Position numbers and translations under genes: made by a program. This document shows, in pieces, positions 16,839-49,616 of a stretch of DNA of 51,528 bases; within the stretch, counting starts at the first letter, position 1, and each line of letters opens with the position of its first letter. Origin of the DNA: a virus; the IMG/VR virus record IMGVR_UViG_3300017971_000076, positions 1 to 51,528 of that record; one strand, 5' to 3'. A model generated the notes under the pieces. It saw nothing but the letters and a program-made list of their open reading frames with translations, searched no databases and had not been told where the DNA came from.

Positions 16839-17093
16839 CTAGTCGCGCGGCTCTTCACGCAACTCACGGAAGTGAATATGAAGTTCGCAGTCGAGAGCGC
16901 GAGCAATAGATTCGAGCGTGGAGAGCTTCACGTCGCACGGCTTATTGCCGAGCACGAGAGAGATAGTGCTGCCGGCTAGGCCAGTGCGTTCTGCCAGTTC
17001 ACGCTGAGAGATATTGGCCTCAAAGAGGGCCCGCCGCATCTGTCGTTTTAGTTTCGGGTCGATAGGCATTTTGATTCCTGCCGTAATCACCAT
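16839..17093 (-). CDS. XRE/Cro-CI-type repressor candidate
   Basis: An 84-residue HTH_3 protein: ISQRELAERTGLAGSTISLV (28-47) is the helix-turn-helix, followed by LSTLESIARALDCELHIHF. The family controls phage lysis-lysogeny switches and antitoxins. ATG 17093 is well supported by AGGAGGG six bases upstream and by a sigma70-type promoter just beyond. Position between integrase and excisionase-like gene fits a lysogeny regulator; there is no peptidase or dimerisation domain, so regulation is not by RecA-mediated cleavage. Confidence 0.75.
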   Translation of the reverse strand: MVITAGIKMPIDPKLKRQMRRALFEANISQRELAERTGLAGSTISLVLGNKPCDVKLSTLESIARALDCELHIHFRELREEPRD

Positions 17094-26622: not shown

Positions 26623-27573
26623 TTAACCCCAGCCGGAAAAGCTAACATCTCGACTGTCTACATTGACATACACATACGCCGCTTCATTACTACCGTATGG
26701 CTCGATAGTGAAGCTCTGCTCTGCCTCCTCCTTACTTCCATCATCTCTCGTAATTGTTGCGCTGAAGGTGACACTTACCGTCGCATTCCCACCCTCATTT
26801 GCGTCCAACGTAATCCAGTACACCTTCCCTTCTACTGGAGAATTGCAGGTTGCAGTGATTGTTGTGTAAGTAGCTGTGCATGTGAACTCGCTAATGTCGT
26901 CATACGTACTGTCGTCCGACCACCAAGACGGGTCGGCGTCACCATACTTCACGGCACCAAATTGCGGCCAATCAACTTGCTCTGGAGACGGTGTACGTGA
27001 GACCTTAATACGGAACTTTGGGTTCGATGGCTTGCCGATTGAGTGGCCCGTCAATTCGAGCGCGACAACAATCGAACTTATCGGCGACAAGGCAACTTCA
27101 GCCGCTATCGGAATCTCTCCTTCAGTCTCGACGGCATTTCCGAATACATCCCCGTCTGACACAAGCAACACGACGCTATCGCCAACATGCTCCACGCCGA
27201 TATTGAAATAAAACGATGGCTCATTACCCCAGAAGTCGTCGCCAAGGTCAGAGTAATCCTTCGTTACTGAATCCGCATACTCGCCGGCAGGCTCCTCCTT
27301 TAATTGCACGGTCGCTCCAGTACTCTTTAGAGTTGCCGACCATACCTGGCTGCCAGTAGGCTCTATTGTTCCGTAATCTTCATGGTCAGTAAGCTTCCCA
27401 GTAATGCCTGTCACTTGAGTCCCGGGCACAACATACTGCGGTACAGTAAGGGCTATACCGTAATCTGGCGTATACCCCGGCGGATTCGGCCCAGGAAACG
27501 ACCAATCTCCCCAGCCCGGCGGCACGTCGAGCGACGACTCATCAGCGACTTTGGCGACGTATGCTCCAGCCAT
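26623..27573 (-). CDS. Beta-rich structural protein, likely tail-associated
   Basis: A 316-residue acidic, beta-rich protein with Ig-like features in the second half (AEVALSPISSIVVALELTGH, TYTTITATCNSPVEGKVYWI, ATVSVTFSATITRDD). Base composition is visibly lower in GC than the flanking fibre gene, suggesting separate acquisition. ATG 27573 overlaps the fibre stop by one base (TGATG). Probably an adhesin or fibre partner; not recognised. Confidence 0.6.
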   Translation of the reverse strand: MAGAYVAKVADESSLDVPPGWGDWSFPGPNPPGYTPDYGIALTVPQYVVPGTQVTGITGKLTDHEDYGTIEPTGSQVWSATLKSTGATVQLKEEPAGEYADSVTKDYSDLGDDFWGNEPSFYFNIGVEHVGDSVVLLVSDGDVFGNAVETEGEIPIAAEVALSPISSIVVALELTGHSIGKPSNPKFRIKVSRTPSPEQVDWPQFGAVKYGDADPSWWSDDSTYDDISEFTCTATYTTITATCNSPVEGKVYWITLDANEGGNATVSVTFSATITRDDGSKEEAEQSFTIEPYGSNEAAYVYVNVDSRDVSFSGWG

Positions 27574-30500
27574 CAGTTCTGAATGTGCGCCTCCACGTTA
27601 CCTGTGCTATTGGCGGTCGGGTTAAAGTTCGTCCCGTTGTTCGATACGGTCGCAGAGTTGGCCTGCACGATCGACCCGATACTCGCGTAGATTCCGGTGC
27701 CCGTGTTGTACGTTACTTTCGTGTCCGCCGTCTTCGCTTCCACGGCCGACAATAAGCGGAAGATCATCCCGTACCCGGTGTTCCCGCTGCACACGCAAGC
27801 CTTGGCGATTACGTTACCCTGCGTGGCGTCGATTCCGTTACCGGGCGACCCCGAGAAGACCGCCCACGGCACCCGCGCGCTACCGTAGTACACCCGCAAG
27901 TTGTAAGTCGCTGCACCACAAGCCTTTACGTAGTCGCCGTACAGGTTGCCGTCCGGATTGACGTTGATCCCGATATCAAAGCCAACCACGCCGAACGCCG
28001 ATCCGAGCCCAGCATGCGCCCGTTCAGTAACGTCCAGGCCGGTTGTGCTCGCAGTACTGTCACCGACCAGAACCATCTTATTCAATGAGCCGATCGAATA
28101 GCCTTGACTCACGGTCATGCCGTCGTAGCCGGAATAGTCCAGGATCGTCTTGACGATCGTGACAGTTCCGGCGACCGCCCCACTCGGCGCAGACGTGTGC
28201 TTGTGTGTCGTGAGGACCGTGATTCGCGTGTTGACCGCATCGACATTCGTGATTTTCCAAACCCCGGCAAGCGTCTCCGGTCGCGTTCCGCCAGACACAT
28301 CGTACGGCACCAGTAAGTAATCATTGACCGCCGCGTTCGACACGTCAGACACATTCAAAACCACCGACCACGCGCCGGCCGCACCGGCCGAACTCTGAAT
28401 CGAAGACAACGTAATGTCGTATGTGTTCTCGCCAGTAATTGTGATGTTATCGCCCATTACATGGTCGAACGAAGCTGTTCCGGCCGTGAGCGTATAGGTG
28501 CCGTCACCCAATTGAATCGTAACCGTCGCACCCACAATCATCGAACTGGAAATCTCACTCATCGCCTTGTCGATCGTCGCCCAGGGGTCGCCGGACGAGC
28601 CGTCTCCGGTCGTATCGTTGCCGCTCGTGGAGATGTAATAAGTCGTGTTCGTTGTGATAGCACCCTGGCATCCGAGGGCCGTGTGGGTAGCGAGCGTATG
28701 GTCCGTGAGTACGTTCGCGATCGTGTTCGGCAATGACAGGTGTTCAGCCGCTACGTAATCCGAGAACCCGTCGTGGTGTGCTCCACCATCCATTGCGGCC
28801 CCGGCCGCCGTCACATTCGTCGTGTCCGTCACATCAGCCGAGGCTTCAATAGTGTCTAGCTTCGCGCCGTCGACCGAAAGGTCGCGCCCGTCGATCGTGA
28901 CCAGCGCGTCGACCGTCAGATTGCCGGTCAGGTTCCGCGTTCCATCCGCCAGCAGATAGATCGTGTGGTCGTCGTCCCCGACCCCGTTAAGCGAACCGTG
29001 GTCGATCTCGCTATCGTTCGTGGTGAGCGTGATATAGTCGCCACCATCCGTGTACGTAAGCCCGGTGCCCGTCCGTAGTACGCCATCATTCGAGGCGGCC
29101 CCCAGGTAGTCGGCCGTTGCACTCGAATCGACTGCCGCCTTTCCGATCGCATCGTATGCCGCGTCCCAATTCGCCGGAGTCACCGATGTGGTAGAGTACC
29201 CCGTGGACCGCAAAATCTTCCCGTTATCGCGCGTCCCAATGACCGAGATGTCATTTTCAAGGTAGGCCGCGCTCAGGATACCGGCCGCACTACCTTGCTG
29301 CCCAAGATTCGTCCAAGTCATCCCGTCGTCCGTCGACACATGGACGCGCCCGGAGTCATTGAAGCCGGCAATCAACACGGTTCCCGTGTAGGTAAAATAG
29401 CCAAACTTCGTCTCCGATCCGACCTGTCCCTCGTCGGTCCACGTCGCACCCCAGTCCGTTGATTTAAGGAGCTTCCCGCCGTTGCCGGTCCCAGCCAACA
29501 CCGTACCGCTCCCGAGATACACGAAGCACCGAACACCAGCCACGCCATGCTGCTGTCCAAGGTCGGACCACGTTGCACCATAATCAGTCGATCGAAAGAC
29601 CTTGCCAGTAATCGTTGTCCCGGCGAGAGCAATCCCGCTCCCAAGGTAGATTATCGAGTACACCTGAGTAGATGTACCGGAGTCCGGCGAACCAAGGTCG
29701 CTCCATGTGGCCCCAGAGTCAGTGGACCGCAGAATCTTACCGCTGGCCGACGTGCCCGCAATCACGATCCCACTGCCGCAATCCGCGATACAGTAAATCC
29801 AGGAGCAACTGTGCTGCTGCCCCAGGTCGCTCCAAGTCGCGCCTGAGTCTGTCGACCGTACGATATGGCCGTTCGAGCCTGTCCCACCTACAACAATCTC
29901 GCCCCCAAGGTTGCATAGACTACGAACTGAAGTCTCGCCCGTGGCTTGTTGTCCGAGATTAGACCACGTTGCCCCGTAATCAGTAGACCGGAGTACGTAA
30001 CCGCCAGCATACGTCCCGGCTAACGCGACTCCGCTGCCGACATATTCCAGGCACCAAACCTTGGTCTGGCTATACATCGTGCCAAGGTCGGTCCACGCTG
30101 TTCCCGTGTCACTTGACCAAAGATACGGTTCTGCTCCATGGTCGCCCCAGCCGTATGCCTCATCTAGCAGTAGACCATCGGCGGAGATGTCCCGGCCGTC
30201 GATTGTGATTCCGGCGTCCACGGACAGGTCGCCCGTCAGATTGCGGGAGCCGTCCGCGAGTAGGTACTGTGTATGATCGTCGTCCGTCAGTCCACCGATC
30301 GAACCGTGGTCGATACCGGATTGATCGAGGCTAAGCGTATCGTCCGTCAGGACGATTGGAGCCGTAACCACAAGGTTCGTGTGTGTCGAAATGTCGATCG
30401 TATCAAGACTAAGTGTATCGTCCGTCAGGATAATCGGAGCCGTAACCGCGAGATTCGTATCGTCAGAGATGTCGATCCCGCTCAAGCTCGCACCGGTGTG

Positions 30501-34237: not shown

Positions 34238-34280
34238 AAAAAGGGGGCCCGGTGCCTCGCGCTCAACACGAGGCACCGGG
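34238..34280 (-). terminator. Rho-independent terminator inside the structural operon
   Basis: Perfect 12-bp arms CCCGGTGCCTCG (34248-34259) and CGAGGCACCGGG (34269-34280) with a 9-nt loop; on the minus strand CCCCCTTTTT follows. It lies right after the triplicated head-fibre gene and would reduce or stop transcription into the tail genes. Confidence 0.85.
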
Positions 34281-37822: not shown

Positions 37823-37825
37823 AAA

Positions 37826-37898
37826 ATCCCCCGCGAGGACTCGAACCTCAAACCTAGTAGTTACAAACCACTTGCTCTGCCTGTTGAGCTACAGGGGA
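37826..37898 (-). tRNA. tRNA-Thr (anticodon TGT)
   Basis: A 73-nt cloverleaf on the minus strand: acceptor TCCCCTG/CGGGGGA (one G-T), D arm GCTC..GAGC, anticodon stem AGTGG/CTACT around TTTGTAA (anticodon TGT), 5-nt variable region, T arm TGAGG TTCGAGT CCTCG, and discriminator T. No CCA encoded. It would read ACA (Thr) codons. It lies inside the structural operon between a capsid-associated gene and the adaptor gene. Confidence 0.93.
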
Positions 37899-37904
37899 CC
37901 ACCA

Positions 37905-37941
37905 GGGCCCTCCGGGCGAAGAGAGAAAACCCGGAGGGCCC
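37905..37941 (-). promoter_or_regulatory. 12-bp hairpin upstream of the tRNA
   Basis: GGGCCCTCCGGG (37905-37916) and CCCGGAGGGCCC (37930-37941) form a perfect stem with a 13-nt loop, with no T-tract after it. It sits between the capsid-associated gene and the tRNA, six bases from the latter. Possible roles are mRNA 3' end stabilisation after tRNA processing, or partial termination. Confidence 0.7.
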
Positions 37942-37960
37942 GACCCCGATCCTGCCCCAC

Positions 37961-41127: not shown

Positions 41128-41502
41128 TTAGCCTCTCTTGTTGTACATCCCGCGCACCTTCAGGGCCTTCCGCTCGTGCGCTGCGGACGTGTAAACGGGA
41201 TCTCCGTCAGCCGTGACTTCCGTAGGGCAGCCGCGATCGCGGAGATGCTTCCGAAGCTCGCCGGCTTGACTGGCGTTCACACCGGAGGCGTAACACACCC
41301 GCGGCCATGCCTTTGACGGACGAACGCTGCCGCCGCGGACCGAAATCACGGCCCCGACCAACTCAGCCCGGTAGTCACGTTCCAGGATCTTGAGACGACG
41401 GCCTTCTCTAAGCTCAATCTCCCGCGGGGTTTCCCCCATCGGAAAGACATACTCGTAGACCGTTCCGTCTCCGCCTCTCTCACTGTAGCAATACGTCGGC
41501 AT
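41128..41502 (-). CDS. Hypothetical protein before the scaffold gene
   Basis: A 124-residue protein starting MPTYCYSERGGDGTVYEYVF. A basic C-terminal half (KHLRDRGCPTEVTADGDPVY). The MPTYxY...G start recalls small head-module proteins; no function known. ATG 41502 follows AAGGGAGA and lies 24 bp beyond the 37-bp bipartite element. Confidence 0.65.
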   Translation of the reverse strand: MPTYCYSERGGDGTVYEYVFPMGETPREIELREGRRLKILERDYRAELVGAVISVRGGSVRPSKAWPRVCYASGVNASQAGELRKHLRDRGCPTEVTADGDPVYTSAAHERKALKVRGMYNKRG

Positions 41503-41526
41503 ATCTCTCCCTTGGCAATCTCCACC

Positions 41527-41563
41527 CTAACAAGGAACGGGCAAAAGTTATCGCTGCCCCACC
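41527..41563 (-). promoter_or_regulatory. 37-bp bipartite element, copy 2
   Basis: On the minus strand GGTGGGGCAGCGAT is followed after exactly 11 bp by GTTCCTTGTTAG. Both blocks and the spacing are identical to the copy at 47683-47719, while the 11-bp spacer differs. It lies between the portal stop and the next operon part, 24 bp before the ATG at 41502. A promoter or activator/antiterminator site is likely. Confidence 0.75.
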
Positions 41564-41577
41564 TGCAAGAACTAGTT

Positions 41578-43317
41578 TCACCCGGTTTGCCGCCCCAGGG
41601 CCGCGACTTCACTCTCCTGGGGCCGTCCACCGAGGAGGGCTTGCTGGAGGATTTGGCTCTTGCCGCCGTCCGTGGCTCCCGGCCGGTTGACCCGCTCATA
41701 GGTCCGGGTCGTGTTGGCCGGCATCCCGGGCTTCTCGCCGCCACTCATCACCTGGTCGACCCAGATAATCAGCCGGTTCAGTTCCTCGAAATCGGCGTAC
41801 TTCGCGATCAGGGCGAAAAGTTCTTGGATATCGAGTTGGCCGCCCGACATCTCGATTGCCGGCATGAAGGGCACCACAAACTCGGCGAGGATCAGCCGGA
41901 GCTTCTGTAGCTTCGTGGCCGGAGAGTCGTCCTGGAATGAGGACACGTCGATATCCAGGTCATAGATACCGAACGAACCGAGCCGAGAAGAACGGTCCCA
42001 CGGGACGACGATGGAGATGTTTGTTCCCGGGACGGCCTTACGCAGCTTCCGCCGCCTAATCGGGTCGTGCCATTCGTAGTAGGCCAACGACCGGAATACG
42101 TCTTTCGAGAGGTCGACCACCTGGCCAGCCATGTCGCGAAGCTGCGCGTTTGATGCCTCGGCAATCAGCTTGTCCTGCCCCAGCGTTTCGGCCTGCGGCG
42201 CGAGTCCACCAAGTGAATCCAGGTTACTAGAGAAGTAACTGAAAAGGTCGCGACATTGCAGGAAGAACGCTAGCGTCGGCTGCTCCACACCGCCAACCTT
42301 CATTGACAGGGGAGGCGGGCCGTTATACGTAATCCCCTCGCCGTCATTGGCGTCACGAAACCGCGTTGCCGCCTCATTATCACCCTGGAAGCCCACTACG
42401 GTTTTCTGCGCGTCAGCTTGGTCGCCTAACTTGCGATAAAGGACGTTCGCCAGTTCATGGAGGTCGCGCCAGGATGCGATCGGAGGCAGAGGCAATAGGT
42501 TCCCCGGGACATCATCGAACCCGAGACCGAGGTATGGTCCAATCTCCGGACCAGTCCACTCCCTGACGTTCAGTCGACGATTCTTCTTCGGCGCGTACGT
42601 GACTATCAGCCCTTCTTTCGGAAGCCAAACGTCCCGGAGGAAGATTTTCTTATGGAACAGATCGGGAGTCGAGTCCTGGGATATGCTCTCAGCACGCTCG
42701 TCGCCGGTGTCGCCGATCGTCGTGTACTCGTCGTGCTTCAGGTCCCGCTTCCATTTCTTCGGAAAGAAATCGCTCTCCATCACGTCTTCCAGGTCGAGCC
42801 AGTAGTCGTTGCCGATGTACTGGATTTGCGACATCTGCTTCGCAGCCATGTCAATCACCAGGTCGTCCAGCGTCACCAGGTCGACGAACGACTCGCCATA
42901 GTCGTGCCCGAGGACTTCCCCGACCTTATGCAGTCCAATCTTAAGCCAACCGGACGAGAAAAGCGCTTCGGTAACCAGTCGGCGCATCGTCTGCTGTAGC
43001 TTAATCTCCGCCGGTATCTGATTGACGGCCAGTTCCAGATTCGCGGCCACCGGCTCGTACCCGGCCTCGGTCGTGCTAATCATGGCGCGAGGGGCACGGG
43101 CCGCCAACATTCGGACAAAGATCGTCACCGCCAGCTTCAGGAACGGGGCCGGCACACGCTTAGAGGCACCTCCCTTGAAATAGTGCGACCCGACGAACTG
43201 CTTGATCGCCTCAACCCGCTTCCTCCGCGGGAACTCCAGTTGCCGAACCGACCAGTCGATGCTCTCGCGCAACCGCTTGAACTGCACCATATCCAGCGGG
43301 TTACTCATCTTTGCCAT
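41578..43317 (-). CDS. Portal protein
   Basis: A 579-residue protein downstream of the terminase. It is helical with mixed basic/acidic clusters and with LRLILAEFVVPFMPAIEMSG, GGLAPQAETLGQDKLIAEAS and a C-terminal helix, typical of portal proteins of short-tailed phages (dodecameric ring, DNA gateway). ATG 43317 follows GGGGG; TTG 43329 is the longer frame and overlaps the terminase stop. Confidence 0.8.
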   Translation of the reverse strand: MAKMSNPLDMVQFKRLRESIDWSVRQLEFPRRKRVEAIKQFVGSHYFKGGASKRVPAPFLKLAVTIFVRMLAARAPRAMISTTEAGYEPVAANLELAVNQIPAEIKLQQTMRRLVTEALFSSGWLKIGLHKVGEVLGHDYGESFVDLVTLDDLVIDMAAKQMSQIQYIGNDYWLDLEDVMESDFFPKKWKRDLKHDEYTTIGDTGDERAESISQDSTPDLFHKKIFLRDVWLPKEGLIVTYAPKKNRRLNVREWTGPEIGPYLGLGFDDVPGNLLPLPPIASWRDLHELANVLYRKLGDQADAQKTVVGFQGDNEAATRFRDANDGEGITYNGPPPLSMKVGGVEQPTLAFFLQCRDLFSYFSSNLDSLGGLAPQAETLGQDKLIAEASNAQLRDMAGQVVDLSKDVFRSLAYYEWHDPIRRRKLRKAVPGTNISIVVPWDRSSRLGSFGIYDLDIDVSSFQDDSPATKLQKLRLILAEFVVPFMPAIEMSGGQLDIQELFALIAKYADFEELNRLIIWVDQVMSGGEKPGMPANTTRTYERVNRPGATDGGKSQILQQALLGGRPQESEVAALGRQTG

Positions 43318-43319
43318 CG

Positions 43320-45137
43320 CTACCCCCAACCCTCAGAACTTAATAGCTCCCTACCGCGAGGTCGCTGCTCCTTTTCCCGTTGCTTCATGCGCCACGCCAG
43401 AGAGCCATACGGCGGCTCCGGGTTTTCCTGTTTCTTTGGTTTTTCTCTGCGCTCCGCCATACCATGGCAGGCCAATGCGTCGGCCATCACCCGGTCGCCG
43501 TGGTTCTTTTTCGCGCCGGTCGGGTCGACCTTATCGTTTGCCCGCGAATGCTCCACGCCGCCCTTGTTATCGAAGATGTATTCGAGCGTTTCCTCCAGCG
43601 CGATCTTCGATCGGTTAACGAGCGAGAATTTCTCTACGCCGGCGCGATAGTTCCCCATCAAAACGAGTTTCGTCTCGTTCGTGCTGGCCCAGCCGGGCAC
43701 GTCCGAAACTTTCTTACTGATCGCCTCTTCGCGCCGGCGGTAGTGGATGTTGCCGTAGCCCAGTTCCATGACGCGGGAGCCGAACTGCCGCCCAACGCCG
43801 TTGTTCTCCCAGATCAGATACGCCTTATTCAGCCACGTCGCCAGTGCCACGGCCTGGCGGGCAAACTCCTCCGGGCGGATGTACGGGTTCGCGTACTCGG
43901 CGACCTTCTCGTTCGTCACCGCGTCGTAGGCGCAGAGACAGGAGTTGCTACTGCCCGTCCCGGCCGATACGTCGCCGCCAAGCACGATCTTGTGGTCGAG
44001 CGTAATCTTGCCGGACTTGTTCAGTAGACACCAGAGATGCAACCGGCCTTCGGGGTTCTCACGAAAACGGATCGGCTCCGCCGTCACGGAGTCGTACTCC
44101 AGGTCGCCCACCAGGATCGGCGGACAGGCGAACCGACGAATCGCCTCCTGGATGGTTGCCGCCGAGAAATACTGATAGCCGGAGCCGAGGTAGTCGATAT
44201 CCAGTTCGGTCGCGATTTCGCGAGCCGACGCCGCCCGGTCGCACTCCCGGTCATACCACGGCGAGCGGAGCTTGCCGTCCAAGGTCGAGCGATAGCGTTT
44301 CGGGAAACCCTCTACATCAATCACCTTCAGGGTGCCGTCCTTGGTCGTCGTGTAGAGCCCCCTGTTCTTGAGCGGATGTTCCGACCAGTGGAAACGGAGC
44401 CTCTTGATCCCGGTCTGCCGCACGTCGTAATAGGCGTTGCCGGTCCCGTTGGGCGTCGAGTTGAAGACCCGGCAGTTCGTGGCGTCCCGGGTCGCGTTCA
44501 GGACTCGGTGTCCCTGGTCGACGGCCGCGAACTCGTCCAGCAGGATCGCCGTTCTCCGGTCGCCCCTGGCAAAGTTCTCAGTAGTCGACTCCCCGTCAAT
44601 CACCGAGCCGGTATACGGGTTCAACATGTGCAGCTTGCTGCGATACGCACGACCGTACCCGGGCGGCATCAACCACCGCGGCATATTACGATGCAGGAAG
44701 TCGATCTTCCAGAAGAGCGCCTTCGGGTTATCGGACTTATCGACGTAATCCTCGACCCGGGAGCCCATAAGGAATGAGAGGTCGTCATGGAAGTGCCACG
44801 CCCATTCAAATGCAAGGATACATAGCCACGAGGCCCCCATGTCTCGCGACTTCTCGACAAAGATGTCGTGCTCGTTGATCGCGCGGATGATCGTCGACAA
44901 GCCATCTCGCTGAAACGGATAGAGGATCATCGGGACCTTGGCGAACGGCTGTCGGCGCGGGTCGTAGGTCCAGACGAAACCGTTCACGTAAAAGATCGGG
45001 TCGCGCTTACAGGCATCCCAGACTACCTCGGCGTACTGCGGGTCGTCCATGACGCGGCGGTGGACCGACTGTCGCCAGCGCATACTCTCCACGAGGTCCG
45101 CGGGGACATGCTTCGCGAAGTCGGTACAGAATTTCAT
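43320..45137 (-). CDS. terL: Terminase large subunit
   Basis: A 605-residue packaging ATPase-nuclease. ATPase: EKSRDMGASW (Walker A-like, 95-104), AILLDEF (Walker B, 197-203), NSTPNGTGN (226-234, motif III). Nuclease: GGDVSAG (Asp389), WENNG (Glu444) and HGDRVMADAL (Asp548). Complete and of normal length. ATG 45137 lies eight bases after GAGAAG and overlaps the preceding 38-aa gene (ATGA). Confidence 0.9.
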   Translation of the reverse strand: MKFCTDFAKHVPADLVESMRWRQSVHRRVMDDPQYAEVVWDACKRDPIFYVNGFVWTYDPRRQPFAKVPMILYPFQRDGLSTIIRAINEHDIFVEKSRDMGASWLCILAFEWAWHFHDDLSFLMGSRVEDYVDKSDNPKALFWKIDFLHRNMPRWLMPPGYGRAYRSKLHMLNPYTGSVIDGESTTENFARGDRRTAILLDEFAAVDQGHRVLNATRDATNCRVFNSTPNGTGNAYYDVRQTGIKRLRFHWSEHPLKNRGLYTTTKDGTLKVIDVEGFPKRYRSTLDGKLRSPWYDRECDRAASAREIATELDIDYLGSGYQYFSAATIQEAIRRFACPPILVGDLEYDSVTAEPIRFRENPEGRLHLWCLLNKSGKITLDHKIVLGGDVSAGTGSSNSCLCAYDAVTNEKVAEYANPYIRPEEFARQAVALATWLNKAYLIWENNGVGRQFGSRVMELGYGNIHYRRREEAISKKVSDVPGWASTNETKLVLMGNYRAGVEKFSLVNRSKIALEETLEYIFDNKGGVEHSRANDKVDPTGAKKNHGDRVMADALACHGMAERREKPKKQENPEPPYGSLAWRMKQREKEQRPRGRELLSSEGWG

Positions 45138-45250
45138 AGAATAAACTTCTCGGCGTACCAAACGGCCGCCTCAACGATAAGTAGACACCATGCTGCATAC
45201 ACAGCCAAAAAGACAGCAAGACCCAAGCATCCGAATAGGATCGCTTTCAT
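45134..45250 (-). CDS. 38-aa single-span membrane protein between terminase genes
   Basis: ATG 45250 overlaps the small-subunit stop (ATGA), and its own TGA overlaps the large-subunit ATG (ATGA). MKAILFGCLGLAVFLAVYAA followed by WCLLIVEAAVWYAEKFIL is almost wholly hydrophobic, with one or two spans. Double coupling strongly suggests real translation. Possible roles: small holin, anchor or terminase modulator. Confidence 0.65.
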   Translation of the reverse strand: MKAILFGCLGLAVFLAVYAAWCLLIVEAAVWYAEKFIL

Positions 45251-45858
45251 TCGCTGCTCTCTTCTAGTTCCGTCAGCATCGCGTCAATCTCCTCTACACT
45301 CCGCTGACTGGCTCGTTTTGATAACCGTTGTTCCTCCTCTTCCGTATCACCCTTGGCCTCCACCTGCCCAAGGCGCTGCATGAACTCTTTAGGTTGCTCT
45401 TTGGCCTGGATGTACAGGAAAAAGGCCCGGTCGTTCGGGCAGGTCGTCGGCTCGACCCCGACGCGAAGGAACTTACCGGCCGCACTCATCGCCCAAGCCA
45501 ACTGCTCACGGTACGAGAGCGACTTGTCTTCGCACTTGACCGCCTTCGGCCGCTTGTCGGGCTTCGGCGTGTCGGCGTGCGACTCAGGATGCGGGTCGTA
45601 GTCGGCGACATCATACGAGCGAAAGAGCGGCTTGAGGCACTGAAAATCCTTCGCGGCCTCGACGGTGGCCTGGTCGAGCGTCATGCCACCGTCTTTTTGG
45701 AACTCGGCCACGAGCCGCTTGAAGCGGTCGTAGGTAATCTTATCCTTCTTCCCGCCGGCCTCTTGTCGCCAGAGAATTGAATGGCAGCGCTTACGGAACT
45801 CTCGCATCGCGATCGGAGGCGAGAGTCCCGCACCTGCCCCGGTGCGCGCCTTACCCAT
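45247..45858 (-). CDS. Probable terminase small subunit
   Basis: A 203-residue helical protein adjacent to terL. N-terminus is basic (REFRKRCHSILWRQEAGGKK), the middle may have a helix-turn-helix, and the C-terminus is acidic (EEIDAMLTELEESSE). No motif proves the function; position and size support it. AAGGAGG lies 11 bases before ATG 45858. Confidence 0.6.
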   Translation of the reverse strand: MGKARTGAGAGLSPPIAMREFRKRCHSILWRQEAGGKKDKITYDRFKRLVAEFQKDGGMTLDQATVEAAKDFQCLKPLFRSYDVADYDPHPESHADTPKPDKRPKAVKCEDKSLSYREQLAWAMSAAGKFLRVGVEPTTCPNDRAFFLYIQAKEQPKEFMQRLGQVEAKGDTEEEEQRLSKRASQRSVEEIDAMLTELEESSE

Positions 45859-47643
45859 CTACGCCGCGTCCTCCTTCGGAATCACGTCATCCACTTCGCG
45901 AATGATGTTCGCAAGCTGCATGGTGACACTACACGGAATATTACTTACCAGTTGCGCAAGCGTGGCGTAGTGCCGGCAGTTATCGAGGGCGGTCAATATG
46001 CGCTTGCTTCCGAGGACCTTGCCGTCCTTATTCACAGCAATCCAATACGACACACCGCCGTAAGTCTTGCGCTGATCCCAGTACAGACCAAAAGCGGACT
46101 CGCGTGTTTCGATCGTCCCAACGGACTTCAGAGTCCCCAGTATCGCGACGACCTTCTTCAGACGATCGACAGGCCTGATATACGGCCCGCTCTGCTTGCA
46201 AGGTCGCTTGATCCCCAGGAGGTCTTCCATCGGCTTGATCTCGTCTTCGATCTTGCAGACGTACTTCAATGCGTCGTCCCGCTGTTGGATGGCGATCTCA
46301 ACCTCTTTCGAGTGCAGCTCGTCTTTCTCGGCGAGCTTCTTTTCTAGTTTCTCATACTCACCAACCAGCAGATTATGCTGAACTATCGTTCGACCACATT
46401 TCTCGGCGTAACGGTCGCACTCAGTCTTTGCAATTTTAGCCTCCTCCTCAAGCTGCCCGATGATTGTGAGATGCTCGTCATTCCGTGTGTTAGCTTCCCT
46501 GTTGTACGCTTCAAGGGCTTCACAGCGCTTGATGAGTGCTTCATACTCTTTAGCAGCGAAACCAGATGAACCTACGGCCTGTCGTTTTAACTCCTCGCAC
46601 TTCTCTTTAGCACCCTTCAATTCGCTAAGGAGGACCTTAGAATTGGCACACATCACATCGTATTGGCGCTTCCAATACTCGCGACTGTCAGTCATTGTGG
46701 CGAGTTCATTTCTCTCGACCTGAAGTTCATCCTTCGCGGCCTGAAGCTCCTCCTGCCCCTTGTCCCGCAACTTGCGGCTCTCGGAAAGCCTGTTGGCCTG
46801 GGCCACCCGCACACGAGTACAGGCCTCAACTTCCCGCGTCATATCGCGAAGCTCATCTGCAAGCTTGACGCGCTGCTTGATTTCCTCCTGGAGGCTCTGG
46901 CTTTTCTCGACAAGCCTTCGTTCAAGGTCCCTGCACTCACTGCGGCAGTTCTCCAGTTTCCCGCGTGTGGTCGTGAGCTTTTTGGCCAGTTGATCTACCG
47001 TGGTAGAACGACGCGCAGCACAATTCGCCTTGACCGCATTTAGCTCATGGAAGAGTTCATCAGCCCTCTTATTGGCGTCGGCAAGTTCGATCACAGCTTT
47101 TCTGCGAGATTCCTCACAGAGATTCAGGTCCTTCTGAAGGTCCTGGCTTTTCTCGTTGAGCTTCCGGTTGACTTCATTACGGGAACTCAGGTCCTTACTG
47201 GCGTCAGCTAACTGATCCTTGATTCGACGGAAATCCGTCTCGGCGCGAGTGTAGGCATTCCTGTAGTTATCGAGTTGGTGCGTGACACGGACAAGTTCCT
47301 TCTTGGCTTCATCACGTTCCTTCTCTAACTCTTCGATCCTCGTGTGAAGCTTGTCGGAAATCATGATGGCCTCAATGACGGCCTGTCGCTCATTCCACAA
47401 CTCCTCTGTCGCATGGGCCAACTCGCCCCGCAACCTCCTAACCCTAGGGAGGCAGCCGACCAAGAAGCGGATCGGCGCGACGGCGAGCCAGAGAAACCGA
47501 CGGATCGGCCGGAACTGGCGACGTTCCCATTCCGGCCATGCGCTCCATTCATACTCAAACCAGACTTCCTTGACTTTCTCTGAACCATTGGCAGTCAACG
47601 GAATGGCGGCATGATCCGGGGCAGAAACACGGTCTTTACTCAT
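45859..47643 (-). CDS. Long coiled-coil protein with N-terminal membrane-like segment
   Basis: A 594-residue protein. Residues 47-66 contain RRFLWLAVAPIRFLVGCLPR, a short hydrophobic segment flanked by Arg. Residues about 72-470 are continuous heptad-rich coiled coil (LHTRIEELEKERDEAKKELV and so on). The C-terminal ~115 residues (GGVSYWIAVNKDGKVLGSKR) look like a separate globular domain. Not a recognised phage family. First large gene after the regulatory element. Confidence 0.7.
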   Translation of the reverse strand: MSKDRVSAPDHAAIPLTANGSEKVKEVWFEYEWSAWPEWERRQFRPIRRFLWLAVAPIRFLVGCLPRVRRLRGELAHATEELWNERQAVIEAIMISDKLHTRIEELEKERDEAKKELVRVTHQLDNYRNAYTRAETDFRRIKDQLADASKDLSSRNEVNRKLNEKSQDLQKDLNLCEESRRKAVIELADANKRADELFHELNAVKANCAARRSTTVDQLAKKLTTTRGKLENCRSECRDLERRLVEKSQSLQEEIKQRVKLADELRDMTREVEACTRVRVAQANRLSESRKLRDKGQEELQAAKDELQVERNELATMTDSREYWKRQYDVMCANSKVLLSELKGAKEKCEELKRQAVGSSGFAAKEYEALIKRCEALEAYNREANTRNDEHLTIIGQLEEEAKIAKTECDRYAEKCGRTIVQHNLLVGEYEKLEKKLAEKDELHSKEVEIAIQQRDDALKYVCKIEDEIKPMEDLLGIKRPCKQSGPYIRPVDRLKKVVAILGTLKSVGTIETRESAFGLYWDQRKTYGGVSYWIAVNKDGKVLGSKRILTALDNCRHYATLAQLVSNIPCSVTMQLANIIREVDDVIPKEDAA

Positions 47644-47682
47644 ACGGGTCTCCCTTCTGAAACAGAATTGTCACTCTCTACG

Positions 47683-47719
47683 CTAACAAGGAACTTACTG
47701 AACCCATCGCTGCCCCACC
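47683..47719 (-). promoter_or_regulatory. 37-bp bipartite element, copy 1
   Basis: Minus strand: GGTGGGGCAGCGAT, 11 bp, GTTCCTTGTTAG. It lies between a terminator and the coiled-coil gene at the head of the structural operon, 40 bp before ATG 47643. It is identical in both blocks to 41527-41563. Confidence 0.75.
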
Positions 47720-47752
47720 CAAGAAAGGGGGGAAGCCCGCCGGAGCGGGCTC
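47720..47752 (-). terminator. Hairpin terminator after the HTH gene
   Basis: AGCCCGC (47734-47740), CGGA loop, GCGGGCT (47745-47751). On the minus strand it is followed by TTCCCCCCTTTCTT. It would separate the HTH gene from the structural operon, whose candidate promoter element begins immediately after. Confidence 0.6.
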
Positions 47753-47774: not shown

Positions 47775-48149
47775 TCAGGCCGCGGCTTGCTCGACCAGCG
47801 GGGCGACCAACTCTTCCGCGGACATGCCGAGGGCGCCGGCAATGCGAGTCATCCTCGCATGAGCTTCCCGGAACTTCCTCTGAATGCCATCGGACGGAAT
47901 TCCGCCGCCCCGAGTGTAGCTCAGTACCTTTTCCCGGTACTTCAGGTACTTCTTCGACGGATCGAATTCCTCATACTCGATATTGCACCACGACGACACC
48001 GAGTACTCGGATTTACGCGCACACTCCTCCTGCGTCAGTTCGGCCGCCCGGCGGATGGCTCGAACACGTCTGCCGAAGGTCTTCGGGCACTTGTCTGAAT
48101 TGGCAACAACCTCAGCAAGCATTTGGGCATCCGACTTTTCATCGCTCAT
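47775..48149 (-). CDS. XRE-type HTH regulator
   Basis: A 124-residue protein with TFGRRVRAIRRAAELTQEEC, ARKSEYSVSSWCNIEYEEFD: an XRE-like helix-turn-helix, followed by a second helical region (REAHARMTRIAGALGMSAEE). ATG 48149 follows GAGGAGA; the frame to 48263 was rejected. It is a good candidate late-gene regulator acting on the divergent region or on the bipartite elements. Confidence 0.7.
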   Translation of the reverse strand: MSDEKSDAQMLAEVVANSDKCPKTFGRRVRAIRRAAELTQEECARKSEYSVSSWCNIEYEEFDPSKKYLKYREKVLSYTRGGGIPSDGIQRKFREAHARMTRIAGALGMSAEELVAPLVEQAAA

Positions 48150-48753
48150 ACGGTCTCTCCTCTGGGAAGTGGAAGTGAAACATGAACTCATCATCCATTC
48201 CACGTTAGTTGGGTCCCTCGCTTTTCCGTCGTGCCCCACTCCGGGAATCCAGATTTTTTTCAATCTTCTTTTCTGGATGGCCCCATAACCGGAACCCGAC
48301 CGATCGCCCTTCTCCGGGGTTCTCCATGGAATAGGACGGCTGGTCGAAACGGGACGGCCGACCGGCCGTTATTTCCGATGATCCCGAAACAGATTTCGGG
48401 ACCATCGTCCTCCTCCTCCATGGAGGCTCCCTGGAGCATGGAGACTCCTTGGAGCCATGTGCGCCTGCGTGAGGACGAAGCAGTCCAAGGCAAGGGCGTC
48501 CGGCCGAGAATCCTCGAATTTACCCCCCCCGGTTGGTTTTGGCACTGAATTCTAGTTGATCTGGGGTAAACATTAGCACCTAAATGAAGTATTACACTTA
48601 ACTTAACACCAAAATTCTCGTTAAGTTCTTTTGCTGCAATGACTTAGATCATGCCCCCCAGATGGACCGATTGGGCGCGGCGGTAACCAGAAAAGCGGGG
48701 ACGTGAACTCTGGAGTGGCTTCGGATTTTTATAGAATGACGAATGGGTGCTTG

Positions 48754-49587: not shown

Positions 49588-49616
49588 TTGACACGCGAAA
49601 TCAGCGCGTTTATACT
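49588..49616 (+). promoter_or_regulatory. Strong sigma70-type promoter of the rightward operon
   Basis: TTGACA (49588-49593), 17-bp spacer, TATACT (49611-49616). The T-run upstream (49579-49589) resembles an UP element. The spacer contains CGCG repeats (CGCGAAATCAGCGCG) that could be an operator. Predicted start near 49623, 50 bp before ATG 49674. Confidence 0.85.

Follow-up and report, generated by a model that had tools for sequence, protein, structure and literature searches.

A bipartite 37-bp element that is repeated exactly upstream of two structural gene blocks in the IMG/VR virus record IMGVR_UViG_3300017971_000076 (51,528 nt; the window is that whole stretch at its full length) is, judged from its sequence, a promoter that combines a sigma70-type -10 element with a phage-specific box. 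We propose that this promoter is activator dependent, that it operates at three sites and that a small helix-turn-helix (HTH) protein, whose own gene lies behind one of them, is the likeliest reader of the box; we give this reading a probability of about 0.72. A phage-specific activator site had been suggested in a preliminary description of this DNA, and the suggestion is supported here: block 2 of the element ends in an extended -10, block 1 replaces the -35, and the box changes in concert at all three sites. The window constitutes a separate virus record, and its gene order is circularly permuted with respect to that of L005/G003 (hereafter G003), a close relative with a portal protein 83% identical to that of the window, indicating that the window is probably a complete genome.

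The element, GGTGGGGCAGCGAT-N11-GTTCCTTGTTAG (block 1, spacer, block 2), occurs exactly at the two minus-strand places originally reported, 47683-47719 (copy A) and 41527-41563 (copy B), and in none of 100 dinucleotide shuffles; the presence of two exact copies is therefore not due to chance. The spacer, previously called variable, varies in sequence and is constant in length (11 nt), and each copy does stand just before the first gene of a block, at a distance of 39 bp in copy A (ATG at 47643) and 24 bp in copy B (ATG at 41502). The likeness of the copies exceeds the blocks first described, with TTCTTG located 0-2 nt 5' of block 1 and GnGTrGAGA overlapping the end of block 2 and continuing past it in both copies. 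A third copy (48239-48202), overlooked in the preliminary description, precedes the HTH gene which that description had named (Table 1). Neither strand of the window yielded a copy beyond these three, and loose matches to either block elsewhere in it are at or near chance level.

Table 1. Promoter copies, genes and hairpins discussed in the text (window coordinates, except in the last row).
Feature	Position	Strand	Remarks
Copy A, box (block 1) GGTGGGGCAGCGAT	47706-47719	-	preceded by TTCTTG at 47720-47725
Copy A, extended -10 GTTCCTTGTTAGCGT	47680-47694	-	TG at 47688-47687; -10 TAGCGT at 47685-47680
Copy B, box (block 1) GGTGGGGCAGCGAT	41550-41563	-	preceded by TTCTTG at 41566-41571
Copy B, extended -10 GTTCCTTGTTAGGGT	41524-41538	-	TG at 41532-41531; -10 TAGGGT at 41529-41524; at the portal/next-gene junction
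Third copy: box GTGGGGCACGAC, 20 nt, -10 TAACGT	48202-48239	-	5' of the HTH gene; without TGn
HTH_31 (Cro/CI-type) DNA-binding protein, 124 aa, candidate box reader	47775-48149	-	behind its own box promoter
Hairpin with T-rich tail	47733-47752	-	read from the sequence; ends the HTH unit just 5' of copy A
Coiled-coil protein gene	45859-47643	-	first behind copy A; followed by small and large terminase and portal genes
124-aa protein gene	41128-41502	-	first behind copy B; followed by scaffold-like and major capsid genes
Canonical sigma70 promoter TTGACA-17-TATACT	49588-49616	+	presumed early gene; conserved at the matching place in G003
Canonical sigma70 promoter TTTACA-17-TATGCT	18391-18363	-	presumed early gene; conserved at the matching place in G003
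Canonical sigma70 promoter TTGACA-17-TAGACT	17147-17119	-	presumed early gene; precedes a Cro-like HTH_26 gene (16839-17093)
Covarying hairpin, conserved loop TTCTCTCTTC / TTTCTCTCTTC	37905-37941	-	after the capsid-adjacent gene; 5' flank contains the partial match
Cys-rich RGLC protein genes of relatives	L031 2689-3255; L032 1101-1319; L023 2042-2341; L019 2493-2717; about 15 more relatives		just 5' of the small terminase gene

Across a large group of phages the portal gene is followed by the 124-aa gene, and copy B sits in the gap between these two neighbours. Tests for a -10 element in individual genomes are underpowered on such single sequences, and the test pooled over 45 non-redundant relatives was decisive: [TG]G?TATAAT was present at this junction in 18-19 of the 45 (shuffle mean 0.6-0.9, maximum 4) and TGnTAnnnT in 23 of them (shuffle mean 4.8, maximum 11). 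The junction carries plain -10 boxes in distant relatives (TTGACT-17-TATAAT in L019; TGGTATAAT in L034, L037 and others), and the same slot reads TGTTAGCGT, TGGTAGTGT and TGTTAGGGT in the closer relatives G003, G004 and L031, respectively. By this comparison, block 2 ends in an extended -10 element (TGnTAnnnT) as well, copy A having TGTTAGCGT and copy B TGTTAGGGT. TAnnGT is common to all three copies, and TGn is found in A and B only. We also observed that the start codon in the relatives often lies 5-7 nt past the -10 (L043, L063, L073, L088, L094 and others), and the messages would thus be leaderless in many phages of the group; the copies of the window have a leader that includes a ribosome site.

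The last base of block 1 lies 20 nt 5' of the -10; with a transcription start 7 nt past the -10, the block would span about -46 to -33. No TTGACA-like hexamer is present in the -35 slot of the 37-bp copies and a sigma70 consensus scan listed neither of them; where TTGACA would be expected, with a spacer of 16-18 nt, the end of block 1 is found. On this geometry, block 1 occupies the -35 slot as a lineage-specific box instead of a -35 element. The early promoters of the same phage are canonical and two of them are kept in G003 (Table 1), indicating that the missing -35 is special to the box set.

In G003, both sites are kept in place, again 20 nt from the -10, with different boxes, GTACCGAG and GTACTGAG (consensus GTAC[CT]GAG); the copy before the HTH gene reads GTGGGGCACGAC-20-TAACGT in the window and GTACCGAG-20-TAACGT in G003. 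The window box followed by 20 nt and TA[AG][CG]GT occurs exactly three times in the window and neither in G003 nor in shuffles, and the G003 box followed by 20 nt and TA[AG]CGT occurs exactly three times in G003, at orthologous places, and neither in the window nor in shuffles. Each genome carries its own box three times and lacks that of the other, which points to a single phage factor that reads the three sites; the concerted change is best explained by a common trans-acting reader. The paired design was found with unrelated sequences in five more phages, namely G004 (TTTTCACG), L026 (TGCGGAAC), L031 (TGATAG[GT]TTTTCC, three copies), L032 and L019, the last of which has an ordinary TTGACTT -35 in its repeated promoter; when each genome was compared with itself, none of 40 shuffled queries reached the observed identity in any of the five, and the second copy of L023 was borderline (2 of 40). 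A search of viral_contigs for TTCNCTTGTTAGNGTNGAGA returned, beyond G003, three matches of one unrelated sequence that has no protein similarity to the window, and a match in G003 at 48727 (CTTGGTAGTGTCGAGA, two mismatches) was set aside as it lacks the box. The preliminary description had held that absence of the motif from close relatives would speak against a functional site. The box sequence is indeed absent from them, but the element keeps its position and architecture through the turnover of the box, and this criterion is thus too simple.

We infer that the reader of all three sites is most likely the 124-aa HTH protein. It matches PF13560 (HTH_31) with 27.2 bits against a cut-off of 27, and its structure is predicted with confidence (pLDDT 86.5). 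Its structural neighbours are weak and of the Cro/CI type, including DdrO, P22 c2 and controller proteins such as C.AhdI (best E value 0.016, none below 0.001), and its PHROGs matches are named repressors or regulators. The gene lies behind a box promoter in the window, G003 and L026 (directly behind it in L026), and a profile search for relatives of the protein recovered only those of G003 and L026, with weaker matches in L060 and L023 among the relatives' loci; the protein was not found in G004, which has an unrelated box. Between the window and G003, the turn and recognition helix are the least conserved part of the protein (4 of 12 residues, versus 69 of 124 overall), a divergence that, as a single comparison, is suggestive of the protein being the reader but no proof of it. 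Consistent with the earlier remark that no RNA polymerase is encoded, neither a phage RNA polymerase, including the single-subunit T7 kind, nor a sigma factor was found among the approximately 40 window proteins scanned. As a separate observation, G003 carries two tandem HTH paralogues at 27365-28150, 57% and 35% identical to the window protein, a possible duplication of the regulator.

Several points weigh against this reading. G004 has the promoter pair, with an unrelated box, and no recognisable HTH, so that some other factor must act there; none was obvious among the G004 genes absent from the window. The box has no strong dyad (a weak one, TTCTTG...CGAgAA, has a variable spacer), and Cro/CI-type proteins usually bind as dimers and are more often repressors. 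The -10 hexamers TAGCGT, TAGGGT and TAACGT match TATAAT weakly, the copies before the HTH gene lack TGn, and about 26 of the 33 relatives tested gave no significant second copy in an ungapped test that covered most relatives.

The HTH protein might instead repress, the boxes being operators at which it occupies block 1 and silences both its own gene and the structural promoters; the latter would otherwise be active through the -10 alone. Its closest folds (DdrO, P22 c2 and C.AhdI, at the E values given above), the names of its PHROGs matches and the autoregulation implied by the position of its gene all fit such a role. However, the boxes lie 5' of the -10, in a -35 slot that holds no consensus -35 to be blocked; weak -10 elements without a -35 should need help, and the early promoters of this phage keep a full -35. 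We consider repression unlikely. The possibility that block 1 is the loading site of an antiterminator of the lambda Q kind, which would let polymerase pass later terminators, is more doubtful still. Hairpins or terminators do lie between the gene blocks (34248-34280; 37905-37941), and at lambda pR' the Q site that controls the late genes is also embedded in the promoter and lineage specific. Yet no terminator was seen directly behind either promoter, whose first genes are 24-39 nt away, the HTH gene has a copy of its own, and the window offers no evidence of antitermination and no Q-like protein among those scanned.

It is very improbable that recent duplication or gene conversion produced the copies and that they have no common function, although the copies in one genome do share a box that the orthologous copies in the other lack. 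Only the box and the -10 are alike, whereas the 11-nt spacer and the flanks differ with the spacing kept to the base; because the copies differ in sequence between box and -10, gene conversion by itself is an unlikely cause, and seven genomes repeat this pattern at equivalent places, with boxes that are unrelated. Hardly credible is an RNA-level signal in block 1 (leader, ribosome site or mini-ORF), for which speak the resemblance of GGGGCAG to the ribosome-binding stretch of the capsid gene, the AAGGGGCAG before the capsid start codon in the window, G003 and others, and the peptide MGSVSSLLA that copy A could encode (a mini-ORF we rejected, as it is absent from copy B and G003), because the block lies 5' of the inferred start and the G003 boxes lack GGGGCAG while the G003 capsid leader keeps it.

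Under activation, which we infer rather than repression, the three promoters would serve the HTH gene, the first structural block and, after the portal gene, a further block. The primary sigma factor of the host RNA polymerase would make contact with the -10, a contact extended through TGn at copies A and B; there being no usable -35, a phage-encoded DNA-binding protein would bind block 1 and recruit or stabilise the polymerase. If this is the HTH protein, the same promoter in front of its own gene would provide positive autoregulation, and box and reader appear to change together between phage lineages.

In many other relatives, a small Cys-rich protein (CLxxxC...RGLCxxCY...TWxxLxxxGLA) takes the place of the HTH protein 0.5-2 kb 5' of the small terminase gene (Table 1). 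These proteins have no Pfam match and only weak PHROGs matches to HNH endonucleases; in L031, L032 and L023 the gene is the first behind the genome's own box promoter, and the family may possibly comprise late regulators. Tentatively, and with more doubt than conviction, we suggest that a late switch made of one small DNA-binding regulator and two or three boxes changes as a unit between close relatives while position and -10 stay constant, the regulator being either a Cro/CI-type HTH protein or a member of this undescribed RGLC zinc-finger family, which would then be a new family of phage late activators.

The architecture resembles, by analogy and without homology, that of the T4 middle promoters, where a MotA box stands in for the -35 beside a host -10, often with TGn, in a phage without an RNA polymerase of its own; the MotA box has 10 bp, lies 12 +/- 1 bp from the -10 and is found in nearly 60 promoters (PMC2988021). 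Shared with that system is a phage box in the -35 place at a constant distance, always 20 nt at the three sites of the window and the three of G003. The window element is not a member of it: the box has 12-14 bp, lies 20 bp from the -10, serves three promoters and has another sequence, and the candidate factor is of the Cro/CI type, with neither MotA nor AsiA among the window proteins scanned with Pfam. In P2, late promoters carry a TGT-N12-ACA site read by Ogr/Delta, with a zinc finger CX2CX22CX4C; as is proposed for the window, a small DNA-binding protein of the phage there recognises a phage-specific site shared by a few structural operons (PMC3931495). Many relatives of the window also have a small four-Cys protein near the terminase genes; however, these have a Cx4C...CxxC pattern and no Pfam match, the window candidate is an HTH protein, and no TGT-N12-ACA site was seen in the window promoters. 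The controller (C) proteins of restriction-modification systems, which are among the structural neighbours of the window protein, are small Cro/CI-type HTH proteins with a site at their own promoter. C boxes are clear palindromes, whereas the window box lacks a strong dyad and serves structural operons. We class the element with the activator-box phage promoters, among which its box turnover in concert is unusually clear.

A targeted literature search found nothing specific on transcription control in phages of this group, which thus appears undescribed. The finding amounts to a small regulon, with one regulator gene and three sites, and the window and G003 are natural variants of it that differ in box and recognition helix with the same layout. 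Position and -10 could locate late promoters in related metagenomic phages in which a search for the box sequence would fail.

The likely host group of the phage family, though not a proven host of this phage, is Verrucomicrobiota, given that capsid and portal relatives occur in genomes of that phylum: a capsid relative with 71% identity lies inside the Cerasicoccus frondis genome (Verrucomicrobiota), and 2 of the 387 genomes from the phylum of Cerasicoccus contained a portal relative. Further capsid relatives were found in a Verrucomicrobia metagenome-assembled genome and on a short Balneolia contig.

Of the partial match noted earlier near 37947-37960, GGTGGGGCAGGAT is present at 37961-37949 on the minus strand, between the capsid-adjacent gene and the hairpin at 37941-37905, but without the second block. 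We rejected it as a box copy since G003 keeps GGTGGGGCAGGATCGGGG unchanged in this flank while its three real boxes differ. The hairpin behind it, with the near-invariant loop NNCUCUCUUC, covaries strongly, lies in the same place in about 20-25 relatives and was present as a single copy in each of the three genomes checked. Across 20 phages that have the loop NNCTCTCTTC, 89% of the positions of the 12-bp stem were paired, compared with 46% (maximum 60%) for permuted arms, with many pair types. No family for it was found in Rfam, where only the tRNA passed; a run of at least four T within 25 nt past the hairpin, in 12 of the 20 phages, is terminator-like. Speculatively, the loop may be connected with the GGAGAGAG ribosome sites of these phages, to which it is partly complementary. 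Directly behind the hairpin, the window encodes a tRNA-Thr (TGT) at 37825-37899 (minus strand), and a tRNA-like sequence follows the hairpin in G004 too. At the place of the 47733-47752 hairpin, G003 has a clearer terminator. Finally, AAGGGGCAG directly precedes the start codons of the capsid gene (upstream of 39854, minus strand) and of a 684-aa gene (upstream of 36348, minus strand), and the capsid genes of G003, G004, L020 and L028 have similar stretches before them.

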